Source: Synergistaceae bacterium
GTDB lineage: Bacteria > Synergistota > Synergistia > Synergistales > Aminobacteriaceae
Direction of reading: 5' to 3'
Assembly (NCBI GenBank): GCA_017448795.1
Contig: JAFSKV010000053.1
Span: 1-64,000, forward strand
Length of the DNA: 64,000 nt
Both the position numbers and the translations under genes were made by a program. This document shows positions 23,112-57,447 of the stretch, in pieces. The notes beneath the pieces were generated by a model. That model searched no databases, was not told the origin of the DNA, and saw only the letters and a list, made by a program, of their open reading frames with translations. Numbering within the stretch: position 1 is the first letter of the stretch; each line of letters begins with the position of its first letter.

Positions 23112-24155
23112 CTAGGATTTATCGCGGCGGAACTTCAGGTATATCAGGCTATAGAGCTTGAGGCTGAACTTGAAGACGATAAGCTGGGCTTTTGTGATGA
23201 AGCGGATATGCCTGCATATTATCACTGCAAGCGGCCGTATTTCTCCCTGAATCTGCGATATATACCCCATGTCAGGAGTCCCGGCTTTTATCATGTAGTT
23301 CGCGACATGCAGCTTCCAGCACCACAATCCGGCAGAAAGATTCCTCACGGCTGATTTGTCCCCCTTGTTGAGGCTGAGTGCGAAATCGTAGCATTTCTGT
23401 GCGGCATCCGTTATGTCGTAAGTCCTGGGCGAGAACGAGTAATGCCCTATAGAGCCTGTCCGTCTCAAGTAATGGTAATATTCGCCGCTGACACATAATA
23501 TTCTGTCAGTCTTTGCCAGAATCTTGTACGTCGTGTAAATATCCTCGGATATTCGGCCTATTGGGTACTCTATGCCCCTGAGAAGGCCTGACTTTATGAG
23601 CTTGTTGCAGGATATGACATCGACCATTGACTGCGGGAAGAGAACGATGCTCAGTGCTTCCCGGCTGTTCATGAGGAGCGGGGGGTAATGCTTCCTGACC
23701 GTATGACGTTTTGCGCCGTCCTCATACTCAAGTACGAACCTGAAGCACACAATCTCAGCATCATATTCCCGCGCATATCCCAAGCAGGCCTCTATAGTCT
23801 CCGGGGCGATCCAGTCATCAGAGTCCACGAAAAGAACCCACTCGCCTTTTGCCTCACGTATTCCGACATTGCGAACCTCAGCGAGTCCCTTGTTGGTCTG
23901 GTGAATGACTCTCACGCGGGAATCTTTCCGGGCGTAATCGTCGCAGATTTTGCCGCTTGAATCAGCAGAGCCGTCATCAATGAGGAGGATTTCGAGATTG
24001 TTATATGTCTGTGCTGTAACGCTGTCAACGCACTTGGCAAGATATTTTTCTGTGTTGTAGACGGGAATTATCACGGAAATCAGGCCATGAAGTGCGGTCT
24101 GGTCTGGTCTGGTCAGGTCTAGTCTGGTCTGGTCAATTATGGCGCGATTCTGCAT
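23112..24155 (-). CDS. GT2-family glycosyltransferase with a pentamer-repeat 5' end
   Basis: 347 aa from ATG 24155 (MQNRAIID). Residues 25-130 are a GT-A domain of the GT2 family: LISVIIPVYNTEKYL, EILLIDDGSADSSG, then the metal-binding FVDSDDWI. These enzymes extend LPS, capsule or protein glycans from nucleotide sugars. The first 25 codons run through a (GACCA)-type pentamer array (8 units) and are not conserved-looking. No ATG, GTG or TTG in frame lies between the array and the GT2 core with a usable ribosome site, except a GTG inside the first strand. Expression therefore seems to need translation from MQNR through the array, so each gained or lost unit shifts the frame. Confidence 0.82.
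   Translation of the reverse strand: MQNRAIIDQTRLDLTRPDQTALHGLISVIIPVYNTEKYLAKCVDSVTAQTYNNLEILLIDDGSADSSGKICDDYARKDSRVRVIHQTNKGLAEVRNVGIREAKGEWVLFVDSDDWIAPETIEACLGYAREYDAEIVCFRFVLEYEDGAKRHTVRKHYPPLLMNSREALSIVLFPQSMVDVISCNKLIKSGLLRGIEYPIGRISEDIYTTYKILAKTDRILCVSGEYYHYLRRTGSIGHYSFSPRTYDITDAAQKCYDFALSLNKGDKSAVRNLSAGLWCWKLHVANYMIKAGTPDMGYISQIQGEIRPLAVIICRHIRFITKAQLIVFKFSLKLYSLIYLKFRRDKS
24096..24135. repeat. Tandem pentamer microsatellite, 8 units
   Basis: Plus-strand units ggtct, ggtct, ggtct, ggtca, ggtct, agtct, ggtct, ggtca. On the coding strand the array starts directly after the -10-like box and is translated in the 5' end of the GT2 gene. Confidence 0.9.
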
Positions 24156-24168
24156 TCTGTCAACCCCT
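24136..24168 (-). promoter_or_regulatory. Promoter-like box pair of repeat element D
   Basis: On the minus strand TTGACA (24163-24158), a 16-nt spacer and CATAAT (24141-24136), preceded by AAAAGGGG. The ATG of the downstream GT2 gene (24155) lies in the spacer. The box pair may be a promoter, or AAAAGGGG may be the ribosome site (eight nt before the ATG); both readings cannot serve the same transcript. Confidence 0.6.
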
Positions 24169-29346: not shown

Positions 29347-32300
29347 TTATGCTACCCAGTATAGCAGGCCTTCTTCAAGGTCAATCCTGAAATTCTCCGT
29401 GTCATCGTCATCATCTGAGGCTGTGTAGCTGTATTGATTCCTCTGGTTCTGACTGCCTGAGTCCTGACCCTGCCCTGTGCTGTCCTGCTGAACGTCAACC
29501 GTGAACTCTGACACATGAACTCCCTGCTGTAACAAGTTATCCCTGAGCTGTGTTGCTTGATCCTGCACTATTTGTCGGATTTGCTCACTTGCTACTTTAA
29601 CAGTCGCTTCAACGCCTGAGCCTGACGAGGTGAGCTCGATGGAAATTCTGCCGAGCGCGGGAGGGTCAACAACGATATTGGCCTTCCTGACTCCGTCTGC
29701 GCGGATGAAACGGACTGTGTTGACGATGCCATTGCGGAGGGTATGCGACTGGGACTGAGTGCCTGAAGCCTCGTATGTGCCTGTCCTGAGAGTGAGGGGC
29801 TGTGTGCTGACGCGTGAAGAAGTGCGTTTTGCCCTCATTGCTCCGTCAAAGAAAGACTGAAAATCGCTCAGGGCATCAATCCTGCGAGTGTCATTGCGGG
29901 GTTCATTGCGTGTGTCAGCTCTTGCGGCTGTGCGCTGGACTCTTGCGGGTGAAGGCTGGACTCTTCCGGGTGAAATTTCGCCGTCATCCTGTGCTGGATT
30001 GTCGGTTTTCTGCGAGGTCTGGGGGGAAATTGTATCTTCTCTGCCCTCATGGCCGCCTTCATGGCCGCCTTCATGGCCGGACTGAAGCGTAACACTTCGC
30101 GGGGTAAACGACGGTGTTATCTCTGTGTCATCAGGCGCGGCTTCTCCCGAAATTTCCGGCGCGTCTTCCCGTGTAACGGTCTGGGATTTCCGGGACACAA
30201 AGGGGCGTGATTGCGTCAGAGTTTCAGGGCTTGAAGCTGTCTGTGTGTCTTGGATTTCCTGTGTATCTTCCGGCGTAACGGTCTGAGATTTCCGGGACAC
30301 AAAGGGGCGTGATTGCGTCAGAGTTTCAGGGCTTGAAGCTGTCTGTGTGTCTTGGATTTCCTGTGTGGTTTCCGGCGAAATTCCAGGTGTTATAGGCGCG
30401 CTCCCCTGTGAAGGCTGTACCTGCACCGCCGAGGCCATGACAGTATAAGCGTCCGTTACAGTGTAGGCAGTCCCGATTTCATCCGGCAGATCTTCAGGGG
30501 CATCGTTCTTGATGATAGGGGCTTCCGGGATTTCTGGCTCCTCATTTTCCGGGAGAATATACGCGGTCTTTGCTGGCTGGATTTGCTGAGGGATGAAATT
30601 TTCGGGCGGCATATCAGCGTCAGGAGCAACGGCAGGGATTTCAGGCGCGGGATTAATGTTCCCTGTGTCCTGTGAGGCCTGCGGTTCATATTCGGCGGCT
30701 ATAGGTTCGCGGCTTACTGGCGGCGTTCCTGAAGGCTTGCGTGTAGCTTGCGGCTTGGGAATAGGATTGCCTGCCCCGTGTGTCAAACTAGAATCACCAG
30801 AAGGCGCGGCTGTCTCCTCATGCTCTGCGATTTCAGGAGGCTCATTCCCGGCTGGGGGTAATGTCTCAGGAACTGGCGCGGGAATTTCCGGGTCAGCGGG
30901 AGTCTCAGGGACTGGCGCGGGAATTTCCGGGTCATCATGCGCAACTTCAGCAGGCAGAGTCTCAGTCTCAACCTTGGTGCTGTCAGGTGCAGGCGGAATG
31001 TCAGAAGCTGGCTGTGTATTTTCCGGCTCATGTTCCGGCTGAAATTCAGCGGGGGCTTCCTCATGCAATACGGGGGCTGCCGTTGATTCTTGGGATTCTG
31101 TTTGCGGAACATCGGGCATTATCCCGGAAAATATCCCGTTCCTTCTGGCGGGCTGAGGCTGAATACCGGCTGATCTGTCAGGACTGGCATCTTGAGCCGC
31201 AGGGGGTAAAGGCTCGCTTTGTTCTTGTGCTGATTGTACTTTCGCTGTCCGTGAAATTTCGGGTTTTACCGGGTCAGCGTCCGGCATCTCAGGGACAAAG
31301 GCTGGTTCATCACTGTGCAGCTGGATTGTGCGCTGTGTTTCCGGCATTACTGCTTCAGGGACTTCCGGCTTGTCTTGGGATACATGCTCATATTCCGGCG
31401 GCAAATCAGGCTGTCTAGGCTCTTGTGATTTTGCCTCATCACCGGGCTGTTTGCTTTGCGGCGGCTCAAAACCTTGGGGATTTATATTCTCACTCTCTGT
31501 GTAATGAGACTCAGGCAGCTCTTGAGGCTCAAGCGTTGAAGGCATTGTGTCAGGCGGCTCAAATGAAGGCTCGGAAGTCTTGGGTAAGTCTGCTTTTTGC
31601 GGCTCAGGCTTCACCGGGACAGTAAGGGAGTCTTCCTGCCCGCCCTTTTCATCAGTAACAGGAAGCCCTTTTGCCTCCTGCATGGTAACTGCCTGCTTCT
31701 GTTTCACGCCGACATGCTCAAGGCTGGGGGAATGTTCCTCCTGCAATGTCTCAGTTTTGGGCTGATACACGGCAGGCTGTTCTGGTACTGGCTGTTCAGT
31801 CTCTGGCTGTTGCGGCTCTGTCTGTTGCGGCTCTGGCTGATTACATTCCGGGCCATCACTGACAGTTTCAGCAGTCCCGGAAAGAACCGCCCCGTCTTCG
31901 AGCGTTCCTGCTTCCGTAAAATCTTCAGCCGCAGCTACAATCCCGCTGTCAAAATCATCATTATGCGCGGTATTCTCCGGCTGTCTCACTTTGAACTCAC
32001 TGCTTCGTCTCAAGCCTGAAAAGAGACTCTTCCACGCGTCAAATTTCCCGCCCGAAGGCTGACCTGTCATATCCTGCTGAACGTCGGGACTGACGGCAGG
32101 TTCAAGCGTATTTTTCCCCGCAAGAAGCCCGATTACCGACTCAGAGACTCCGCGCCCCGCCCTGAAAGTCAGAGGCTGTGAAGAAACCTTAACCCGACTC
32201 TGCGTCTCAGTCAAAGGCTGTGAGCTTTCAGGCTGTGTGTTTTCCGCCTGAACGTCCGGGATGATGCGCTGAGGCTGTGTGCTTACTGTCTGAGCGTCCG

Positions 32301-47830: not shown

Positions 47831-48957
47831 AGAATATCTTTGTGTCATGCGGCGAGGTAAGCGGGGACATTTACGCGGGCGCATTCATCCGTGAGGCACT
47901 GAGGATTTCCCCTTCAGCAAGAATATGGGGAATGCTAGGCGACAACGGAGTGAAGGCCGGGGGTATTGCGGCATGGAGCTACGAGGAGTTGAAGCTCATG
48001 GGACTGCTGGAAATCCTCCCGGCAATCCCGCGAATCTTGCGGCTGAAACGCAACATTTCCCGCGAAATCATGGCCGTGAATCCTGACGCTGTAGTGCTGA
48101 TTGACTGCCCTGACTTTCACCTTATGCTTGCGCGTACGCTGAGGAAGGCCGGGTATTCCGGGAAGATCGTCTCGCTCATTCCTCCTACTGTGTGGGCTTG
48201 GCGTTCCGGGAGAGTCCGAAACCTGCGGCGGGATTTTGACGTTTGCCTTCCGCTGTTCTCGTTTGAGCATGAGTTCCTGCTGTCGAACGGGGTAAATTCG
48301 CGCTGGAAGTCTCATCCTTTAGTCCGCGAGATGGAGGGCGTGAGAGTCCCTGAGTCATTCCGTGAGAGGTTCGGCCATGAGAGAGTGATTGCGCTGATGC
48401 CCGGAAGCAGACGCTACGACATAAGATTTCACCTAGATATATTGCTTGGGACGGCTGAAATTCTGAGGCGTGAGGGATATTGCCCGGTGTTCTCTGTTGC
48501 TGAGGGACTGAGCGCGGGGCTTGCTGACGAAGTGAGGGGACGTGCCGGGAGTTCTGGCTTTGCTGTTTGGGAGGAAAGCGGGCGTGAATTGATGCTTGGC
48601 GCGGAGGCTGTGGCGGGAGTCTCCGGGACTGTGTCAGTTGAGGCTATGTTACTGCGGCGGTTCATGGTCGTCATCTACAACATGAGGCGGCTGAACTACG
48701 CAATCTTGAAGCGGCTTGTCCATGTCCGCAATATATCAATACCGAACATGCTGACAGGCAGGCAGGTTTACCCGGAATTGCTATGTGATGAGGCCACGCC
48801 GGGAAATATTGCGCGTGAGCTTGCGGGGTATCTGAGTGATGAGGGAGTGAGGCGTGAGACTGATGCTGCGCTGCAGGAGGCCCGGCGGTCTATGGGGGAA
48901 TATGATGCGGCGAGGTTCTGGGCTGAAACTGTTTCTGGTATAATCGGCAAATCCTAG
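47827..48957 (+). CDS. lpxB: Lipid-A-disaccharide synthase
   Basis: 376 aa, normal length. GT19 enzyme that joins UDP-2,3-diacyl-GlcN and lipid X, the product of LpxI. Motifs: FVSCGEVSGDIYAGAF at the start, LIPPTVWAWRSGRVRNLRRDFDVCLPLFSFE, ALMPGSRRYDI and the C-terminal RRLNYAILKRLVHVRNISIPNMLTGRQVYPELL. It starts inside the stop of the second symporter (ATGA). Element B follows nine nucleotides after its stop. Confidence 0.95.
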   Translation: MKNIFVSCGEVSGDIYAGAFIREALRISPSARIWGMLGDNGVKAGGIAAWSYEELKLMGLLEILPAIPRILRLKRNISREIMAVNPDAVVLIDCPDFHLMLARTLRKAGYSGKIVSLIPPTVWAWRSGRVRNLRRDFDVCLPLFSFEHEFLLSNGVNSRWKSHPLVREMEGVRVPESFRERFGHERVIALMPGSRRYDIRFHLDILLGTAEILRREGYCPVFSVAEGLSAGLADEVRGRAGSSGFAVWEESGRELMLGAEAVAGVSGTVSVEAMLLRRFMVVIYNMRRLNYAILKRLVHVRNISIPNMLTGRQVYPELLCDEATPGNIARELAGYLSDEGVRRETDAALQEARRSMGEYDAARFWAETVSGIIGKS

Positions 48958-48965
48958 ACACACGA

Positions 48966-49001
48966 AAGGAGCTTGACACAAGAATCATGGCCGTGTACAA
49001 T
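48966..49001 (+). promoter_or_regulatory. Promoter of repeat element B
   Basis: AAAGGAGC, then TTGACA (48973-48978), a 17-nt spacer and TACAAT (48996-49001). The layout is identical to element A at the left window edge and heads the glycosyltransferase at 49070. It starts nine nt after the lpxB stop. Confidence 0.75.
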
Positions 49002-49073
49002 CGCACATCGCACATCGCACATCGCCTGAATTATTCCCTTTTCCTGATTGACCTTACGGAGGCCGGGCAATGA
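48987..49073 (+). CDS. Leader peptide ORF across the heptamer array, coupled to a glycosyltransferase
   Basis: A 28-codon frame beginning MAVYNRTSHIAHR crosses the heptamer array and ends in the sequence caATGA, whose ATG is the start of the glycosyltransferase. The present three units place the leader stop exactly at the start, an arrangement typical of translational coupling. A change of one unit would move the leader into another frame and break that overlap. The AAAGGAG site is 15 nt before its ATG, which is long, and a transcript starting at the promoter above would not contain this ATG, so translation of the leader is unproven. Confidence 0.4.
   Translation: MAVYNRTSHIAHRLNYSLFLIDLTEAGQ
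49002..49025. repeat. Tandem heptamer microsatellite, 3 full copies
   Basis: Unit cgcacat, three perfect copies plus cgc, beginning right after the -10 box of element B. Same unit as at 1-33 (reverse strand). Confidence 0.9.
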
Positions 49074-50257
49074 GGGTAGTCCACATTCAGCCCGGAGGCT
49101 TCTATGACGGCTTAACCTATCAGGAGAACCTTCTCACAAAATGGCAGCACAGGAACGGACACGACGTAACAGTAATCACAACAAGATGGTCCGCCGACGC
49201 AAACGGAGTCCCCTGCCTCGTCCCGGAGAGCATGTATGACCGCGTCAACGAAGACGGAGTGAGGCTTATACGTCTTCCCCTGACCTGCGCGGACAGGTAC
49301 ACATTCGGCTATGATGAGCTGTACAGGACGATTGAGGCAATCAGCCCGGAAATCCTGTTTATACACGGGGTCGACCACAACACAAGCGCGCTCACAGACT
49401 ACCTCGCAAGACACAGGGAAGTAACAGCCTATGCGGACAATCACAAAGACTTCTCAAATTCCGGCTCATCCCTGCCCAAAATCATCCGGCGTATCGCAAA
49501 GCTGCTCCTGAAAACAGGACTGCCTGGGCTGTTGACCGCAAGACAACCGCGCAAACTCATACCCTGCGTGAAGAAATTTTACGGGGTACTTCCTGCCCGT
49601 GTCGACATCTTGAAGTATTACTACAAAATCCCGGCGGAAAAATGCGAACTCCTCCTCATGGGTGCTGATGATGATCTCGTCTCTGAGGCCTCAAACCCAA
49701 GCGTCAGGCAGAATATCCGCAACCAGTACGGCATCTCCCCTGATGACTTCCTCGTGATGACCGGCGGCAAAATCGACATCCCGAAATCCCAAACCCTGCT
49801 GCTCATGGAGACCGTAAGGAATCTCAATGCTGAACGCGGGAATGTCAGGCTGATTGTGTTCGGGCCGGTTGTCCCTGAGCTGAAGGCAAGGTTTGACGCT
49901 CTTGTTGACGGCAAGATTGTACAGCATGTCGGCTACGTGAAGGGGAATGACTCGTACAAGTACTTTGCGGCCTCAGACCTTGTTGTGTTTCCCGGCCGTC
50001 ATTCGGTCTACTGGGAGCAGGTTACAGGGCTCGGAGTCCCCATGCTCTGCAAGGAATGGGACGGCACAAAGCATGTCGATCTTGGCGGCAACGTGCGCTT
50101 CCTAAGACATGACAGCACGAAGGAAATCCAGCGTGAAATCGAACGCCTCTTGGACAATCCCGGCGAGTACGGGAAGATGAAGGAAGTTGCCCGGCGCGAA
50201 GGAATGAAGGTGTTTTCCTACAGACGGATAGCCCGCCAAAGCCTCGAAGAAATCTAG
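49070..50257 (+). CDS. GT4-like glycosyltransferase behind repeat element B
   Basis: 395 aa, a GT-B glycosyltransferase. The N-terminal half starts MRVVHIQPGGFYDGLTYQEN and the C-terminal half has FGPVVPELKARFDALV, YKYFAASDLVVFPGRHSVYWEQVTGLGVPMLC, the usual donor-binding region with a Glu-Gln instead of Glu-rich pair. It has GGAGG seven nt upstream of the ATG. The gene is separate from the nickel operon that follows. Being directly behind the repeat element, its expression is the likely output of that switch. Sugar specificity is unknown. Confidence 0.82.
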   Translation: MRVVHIQPGGFYDGLTYQENLLTKWQHRNGHDVTVITTRWSADANGVPCLVPESMYDRVNEDGVRLIRLPLTCADRYTFGYDELYRTIEAISPEILFIHGVDHNTSALTDYLARHREVTAYADNHKDFSNSGSSLPKIIRRIAKLLLKTGLPGLLTARQPRKLIPCVKKFYGVLPARVDILKYYYKIPAEKCELLLMGADDDLVSEASNPSVRQNIRNQYGISPDDFLVMTGGKIDIPKSQTLLLMETVRNLNAERGNVRLIVFGPVVPELKARFDALVDGKIVQHVGYVKGNDSYKYFAASDLVVFPGRHSVYWEQVTGLGVPMLCKEWDGTKHVDLGGNVRFLRHDSTKEIQREIERLLDNPGEYGKMKEVARREGMKVFSYRRIARQSLEEI

Positions 50258-56842: not shown

Positions 56843-56881
56843 GAGAAAGGAGCTTGACAGAATGCAAAATCGCGCCATAAT
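56843..56881 (+). promoter_or_regulatory. Promoter-like box pair of repeat element C
   Basis: AGAAAGGAGC, then TTGACA (56854-56859), a 16-nt spacer and CATAAT (56876-56881), the same layout as elements A, B and D. An ATG at 56862 lies in the spacer, nine nt after AGGAG. Confidence 0.65.
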
Positions 56882-57447
56882 CGACACGACACGACACGAC
56901 ACGCCTTCACTTTGCCGAAAAATATTCCGAAAGCTGTCCGTAAAATCCAGCAAAGTGTTCGCAAAACTCAGGGTTAATCTCATGTGGCCTCTGTATTCCC
57001 ATGTGGCAGGCTGGAAACCCGTCAGTCCCCGCAATTACGGCAGGCCGCTCATGGTGTCGCTTACTTCATTCCCCGCAAGAATCAACACCGTCCACAAAAC
57101 GATTCATTCCCTCATGCTACAGGACATGAAGCCCAACAGAATAATCCTGTGGCTGACGGATGAAGAGTTCCCAAATATTCCGCGAAATATGCACGACCAA
57201 CGATGACATATGGTTCTGGCTCATGGCCGCGCTTAACCATGTCCGTGTCCGTGCAACTGAGGGAAACCGTCCTCATCTTGCGCTTGCTTACGTTGGCAGT
57301 ACCCAGAAAGGCCCGACGCTCTCAAGCATAAATGACGGAGGGGAAAAATTGTTCTGGAAGGATTTTCACAGGATGCTCGGACATTACCCGGAGCTGGAAA
57401 AAATCCTGCGTGATGAATATGAACTCATGAAGGAGAACGAGGCCTGA
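56862..57447 (+). pseudogene. Glycosyltransferase with internal deletion and frameshift
   Basis: The first part (MQNRAIIDTTRHDT and onward) contains PLMVSLTSFPARINTVHKTIHSL and RIILWLTDEEFPNIPRNM in frame from 56862 to 57206. The last part of the same family (TNDDIWFWLMAALNHVRVRA, TQKGPTLSSIND) continues in another frame to 57447. Known relatives of this glycan transferase type have about 110-130 residues between the two; here the join falls near 57180, so the middle with the central acidic motif is lost. It sits behind repeat element C and is presumably non-functional. Confidence 0.72.
56883..56902. repeat. Tandem pentamer microsatellite, 4 copies
   Basis: Unit gacac, four perfect copies, directly after the -10-like box. 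In the ORF from 56862 it encodes TTRHD-type codons. Confidence 0.9.

Follow-up and report, generated by a model that had tools for sequence, protein, structure and literature searches.

A repeat-bearing promoter cassette ahead of a glycosyltransferase gene in rumen Synergistaceae: probable phase variation through a coupled leader

The gene at the centre of this study, in a 64,000-nucleotide stretch of DNA that we refer to in its entirety as the window, encodes a 395-aa protein matching Pfam glycosyltransferase group 1 families, and is immediately preceded by lpxB and followed by a DUF4198 gene. Ahead of it lies a leader ORF that encodes MAVYNRTSHIAHRLNYSLFLIDLTEAGQ and carries a heptamer array of period 7 and 100% match, i.e. 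three ACATCGC units (Table 1); tandem pairs of this unit, with at most one mismatch allowed, occur five times in the window against 0.02 expected by chance. The leader TGA (49071–49073) overlaps the transferase ATG at 49070. The TRF output and the ORF coordinates bear out the sequence-only reading, made earlier from the letters of this DNA, in two respects: a heptamer array does sit in a leader ORF ending in the ATGA of the transferase start, and with three units the leader stop and the transferase start do overlap exactly. After the array the two non-coupled frames run into stops 41 and 19 nt 5' of the transferase start and, because these frames end early, the gain or loss of one heptamer unit destroys the ATGA overlap.

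Two putative promoters, P1 and P2, accompany the leader. From P1, an extended −10 element within the 3' end of lpxB, a leader-bearing transcript is predicted to start near position 48951. P2, with TTGACA at 48973–48978 and TACAAT at 48996–49001, holds the leader ATG inside its 17-nt spacer, an arrangement that had gone unremarked in the sequence-only reading; it is the top promoter match (11/12) in the 20 kb scanned, an equal score being found at the cassette at 56854. The heptamer array starts at the −10 element of P2, the predicted P2 transcript start (about 49007) falls inside the array, and P2 transcripts would be without the leader start codon. The Shine–Dalgarno-like element of the leader, AAAGGAGC, stands 15 nt from the leader ATG, a spacing above the optimum.

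Table 1. Features of the transferase locus and of the other cassettes in the window
Feature	Position	Strand	Evidence
P1, putative extended −10 element TGGTATAAT, within lpxB 3' end	48936–48944	+	Cassette statistics; sequence reading
AAAGGAGC, Shine–Dalgarno-like element of leader	48965–48972	+	Recurrence of the AAGGAGCTTGACA pattern in the genus
P2, putative sigma70-type promoter TTGACA-N17-TACAAT, nested over leader start codon	48973–49001	+	Consensus match; cassette statistics
Leader ORF, 28 codons, TGA overlapping transferase ATG	48987–49073	+	Exact ATGA overlap in four orthologues
Heptamer array (ATCGCAC)3.7	49000–49025	+	TRF; orthologues with 6, 6 and 3 units
Post-array segment, open solely in the coupled frame	49026–49057	+	Frame reading of sequence
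GGAGG, the transferase's own Shine–Dalgarno sequence	49058–49062	+	Direct sequence reading
Glycosyltransferase gene (GT4 type, 395 aa), under cassette control in the proposed scheme	49070–50257	+	Pfam PF13524 and PF13692 above cut-off
Second cassette, array of 4.7 units, cut by contig end	1–67	−	TRF and promoter pattern
Third cassette, interrupted pentamer array (GACCA), GT2 glycosyltransferase fused in frame (ON), gene to 23115	24096–24163	−	
Fourth cassette, pentamer array (CGACA)4.4 sharing its frame with a decayed gene	56847–56903	+	

Counting that of the transferase, about 85 such arrays occur in a single genus of rumen Synergistaceae. The cassettes share one order, namely P1, the Shine–Dalgarno-like element, a TTGACA-N16–18-TATAAT promoter (P2) whose spacer contains a start codon, and then the tandem array. 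The AAGGAGCTTGACA pattern gives about 100 matches, in 34 of the 43 genomes of the genus, whereas its reversal yields just a handful; 77 of the sites fetched by it have an array at the expected position, and these are the 77 cassettes on which the statistics given here are based. Their units are 7 bp long in 42 cassettes, 5 bp in 33 (plus one read as 10 bp) and 8 bp in one, with 6 or 9 bp found in none, and the unit sequences vary by locus (ACATCGC, GACCA, GACAC, GTCAA, CCACA, GGAGTCA, CGAAGCCA and others). The heptamer module itself recurs at some six sites of the genome, in 2 to 5 or more units, and mostly precedes or lies within genes resembling those for cell-surface sugars.

When arrays were sought first, all four exact 5- or 7-bp arrays of at least three copies in the window fell in its four cassettes (the transferase one included), as did 10 of 12 exact 5/7-bp arrays in 800 kb of the relative G030, where cassettes with degenerate hexamers were assigned by eye; the arrays of period 2, 3, 6 and 12 in the same 800 kb all lay outside cassettes. 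The named relatives are ruminant-gut Synergistaceae MAGs. Among 140 other genomes of the order there was no convincing case, the few pattern matches there being singletons, and within the order the pattern is thus essentially restricted to the one genus. The core formed by P2 and ATGGCC found no match in viral contigs, and a phage origin of the cassette was rejected on this ground.

A scan of 63 genes behind cassettes identified MBOAT (10), bacterial sugar transferase, acyltransferase-3 and GT61 (five each), nitroreductase (four), and GT2, GT11, GT1, ATP-grasp sugar transfer and pyruvyl transferase (three each). Judged by these families, the genes under cassette control would mainly have surface-polysaccharide and acyl-modification functions, and genes of this kind are the usual targets of phase variation. 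In three sets of loci (L053/L058/L076, L034/L062 and L155/L158) homologous genes carry arrays differing in unit sequence and even in unit length (5 versus 7 bp); at these loci the arrays seem, from the sequences, to have been replaced wholesale with the cassette retained. Contig ends are reached by 11 of the 77 arrays, as is expected if unit number varies within the sampled population; such breaks can also stem from repeats common to several loci.

Both promoters recur with the cassette. Within the 62 nt upstream of the Shine–Dalgarno-like element, a match of at least 7/8 to TGnTATAAT is present in 56 of 76 cassettes (5.8 in shuffles), the distance from P1 to that element being 16–45 nt. For P2, a match of at least 5/6 to TATAAT, 15–19 nt after TTGACA, is present in 66 of the 77 (shuffled mean 5.5, maximum 14); TTGACA was part of the retrieval query, yet the loci found by their arrays also show TTGACA or a near match. 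Almost all complete cassettes have a spacer start codon (ATG, sometimes GTG or TTG) whose frame stays open across the array, and of 31 frames leading from an ATG to TATAAT a single one would read TAA within TATAAT. Considering this avoidance together with the conservation of P2, we conclude that promoter and coding constraints are both present. The strength of the P2 −10 element and array length were not correlated (Spearman −0.11, p 0.36). In the few array-less cassettes (L054, L081, L082 and L107) the P2 −10 element also tends to be degenerate.

The cassettes differ in how the array is joined to the gene, and P2 is conserved in both types. At 33 loci the gene is fused: one frame leads from the array straight into it, and no separate start is obvious. 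At 14 of these the spacer ATG shares the gene's frame (ON), and at 19 it does not (OFF). At the 30 leader-type loci the gene has its own start, and 29 of them possess a frame that stops between −6 and +13 nt from that start, the remaining two frames mostly stopping early. With shuffled gaps a coupling frame was present at a mean of 12.7–14.0 of the 30 loci (maximum 23–24), the conditional null, in which there is no fused frame, giving a mean of 14.0 and a maximum of 23; with one locus per gene family, 14 of 15 have the coupling frame against a shuffled 6.5 (maximum 13). The present unit number lies in the coupled frame at 9 of the 30 leader-type loci, and 14 of the 33 fused loci are ON; both shares are close to the third that random unit numbers would give. 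Eight extra G030 arrays that the motif query had missed mostly conform to this geometry, comprising three with an overlap in the current frame, one with an overlap out of frame, two fused and two ambiguous. The cassette also precedes four orthologues of a nitroreductase-family gene (L006, L029, L030 and L125); none of the four is in the coupled frame, a point that counts against the switch.

Transferase orthologues are found in G031, G004 and G023 at 74, 69 and 57% identity. The three orthologue cassettes hold six and six ACATCGC units and then three units of a different heptamer, so that the four transferase loci (this one included) have 3, 6, 6 and 3 units of two sequences; the orthologue leaders are 39, 38 and 39 codons long, and the TGA/ATGA overlap is exact in all. 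In a fifth relative, G033, the transferase gene is split and the cassette is absent. Array unit number differs between close relatives, a locus pair of 91% DNA identity having 12 units (ON) at one locus and six (off) at the other. The sequence-only reading had proposed that the gain or loss of a heptamer shifts the leader frame and thereby makes or breaks coupling, and this proposal gains support from the frame geometry, from the orthologues and from the non-triplet units. Its view that switching acts through the leader and not through the coding region, as an unusual form of phase variation, would hold at the transferase; the locus is not a lone oddity, and about half of the family would switch through the gene's own coding region.

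Considering the anatomy, recurrence, unit-length rule, frame geometry and between-species differences in copy number, all of which are established by sequence comparison, we suggest that the transferase locus is probably a phase-variation cassette in which the frame is switched through a translated leader coupled to the transferase; the comparison across loci and orthologues supports leader-coupled phase variation. RNA initiated at P1 would carry the Shine–Dalgarno-like element and the leader start codon. Ribosomes would read through the array and, with 3n units, would arrive at the TGA overlapping the transferase ATG, giving coupled translation (ON). If a 7-bp unit were gained or lost, presumably through slipped-strand mispairing, they would be led into a frame stopping 19 or 41 nt short, whereupon coupling would be lost and transferase output would drop (OFF or low). 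The sequenced allele, with its three units, would represent the ON state. From these comparisons we infer that units slip within populations, how far expression would change, and that P1 is used at the transferase locus.

With regard to the uncoupled state, leader-type genes retain good Shine–Dalgarno sequences of their own, and mRNA folding revealed no general sequestration of the downstream Shine–Dalgarno sequence (0.25 unpaired versus 0.29 in shuffles), a result that speaks against general mRNA structure as a means of hiding that of the transferase. Since this sequence is good and shows no such general sequestration, the uncoupled state may be LOW and not OFF. Expression from P2 independent of frame is possible, given its near-consensus hexamers and transcripts that would begin without the leader start; some of the transcripts may accordingly start past the leader ATG and bypass the leader. 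As a more speculative proposal, towards which we incline to doubt, P2 might itself be part of the switch: initiation might open the DNA at the array and so raise unit gain and loss, or might set a second, frame-independent level, and the cassette would then be self-contained and interchangeable, with units freely replaced.

Could unit number act by length instead of by frame? In hmw1A and hmw2A of Haemophilus influenzae, heptanucleotide repeats lie near the promoter, and as they grow downstream of a functional P2 promoter expression decreases via the promoter/5'-UTR (PMC8262952); likewise, the Synergistaceae 7-bp units are placed just downstream of the predicted P2 and upstream of a surface gene. 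If P2 works, unit number might grade mRNA level or translation, the leader being incidental, and it fits this scheme that P2 is statistically real and that the array begins at its −10 element, which places units at or past +1. In contrast to such a length effect, however, the Synergistaceae geometry follows the reading frame. Length control leaves unexplained the restriction of units to 5, 7 and 8 bp and the conserved in-frame start codon, it does not account for the coupling frame at the leader-type loci, and the 33 array-fused genes, which would be untranslatable from P2 RNA, could not be expressed in this way. We regard it as unlikely, and the frame rules argue against graded promoter–repeat control as the only mechanism.

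Next in order comes a two-layered scheme, which we hold to be improbable, where P2 RNA would provide a frame-independent basal level and P1 RNA the coupled, phase-variable part, resulting in a high/low switch. The conservation of both promoters, and the good Shine–Dalgarno sequences that leader-type genes have of their own, are in agreement with it; fused genes, though, keep P2 as well, and there no translated product would be gained. Very improbable, finally, is a dispersed promoter-plus-repeat element in which unit number has no regulatory effect and the ATGA overlap reflects the usual close packing of genes in operons, a view that suits the scatter of the heptamer module in the genome but not the constant frame geometry amid unit sequences that vary by locus, nor an overlap that is far above shuffles and is retained by an orthologue with a different unit; with units changing between loci while the geometry stays, a functionless dispersed mobile repeat was rejected.

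The principle underlying the proposed leader-coupled switch, repeat-frameshift switching of LPS genes, is known. In H. influenzae LPS genes with tetranucleotide repeats (lic1A, lic2A, lgtC and lex2A) repeat number fixes the frame, set numbers being ON and others OFF (PMC6479036, PMC2651432). As at those contingency loci, repeat number in the Synergistaceae would set the frame of surface-sugar genes; unlike them, the Synergistaceae loci have units of 5, 7 or 8 bp that differ at nearly every locus, and they share a standard cassette, in which a second promoter overlies the start codon; about half of them would act through a separate coupled leader. For a short repeat ORF ahead of a transferase, lex2A/lex2B may be a precedent. 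In Bacteroides, invertible promoters phase-switch numerous polysaccharide loci within the same genome; many Synergistaceae surface-polysaccharide loci per genome would similarly share a switch type, whereas these show tandem units only and no pointer to site-specific inversion. Stop–start proximity is a standard signature of translational coupling (PMC3711429), and the Synergistaceae leader stop overlaps or abuts the downstream start as at ATGA or TAATG junctions; unlike at ordinary junctions, coupling geometry exists in one of three repeat-number states only. In the open-access literature, where absence is weak evidence, we found no paper on leader-coupled repeat switching and no report of phase variation in Synergistaceae, nor any paper that brings together repeat-frameshift switching, a promoter–heptamer layout and stop–start coupling.

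If the proposed mechanism is true, gut Synergistaceae would possess a genus-wide phase-variation system with a standard cassette recognizable from sequence. The coupled-leader mode would keep the repeats out of the controlled protein, and any gene could then be phase-varied with its N terminus unaltered. If P2 belongs to the switch, one genus would be using an element that combines mutability with switching to phase-vary many surface-sugar genes.

With respect to the other cassettes in the window, contig C49 stops within an array of the same heptamer as that of the second cassette, which is cut off at window base 1, and runs on into an SGNH-like gene (assigned by eye); the ends of C49 and of C41, the contig that holds window base 1, are probably two halves of one array-broken locus, made up of the cassette and the SGNH-like gene. 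At 56847–57447, which takes in the fourth cassette and the gene behind it, an intact switch stands before a broken gene, which has a stop at 57204 and the rest in another frame. The window also contains repeats with longer units, one of 36 bp in about nine copies (449–825) and one of 102 bp in 2.1 copies (30164–30377); both unit lengths are multiples of 3, and these repeats likely encode protein repeats.
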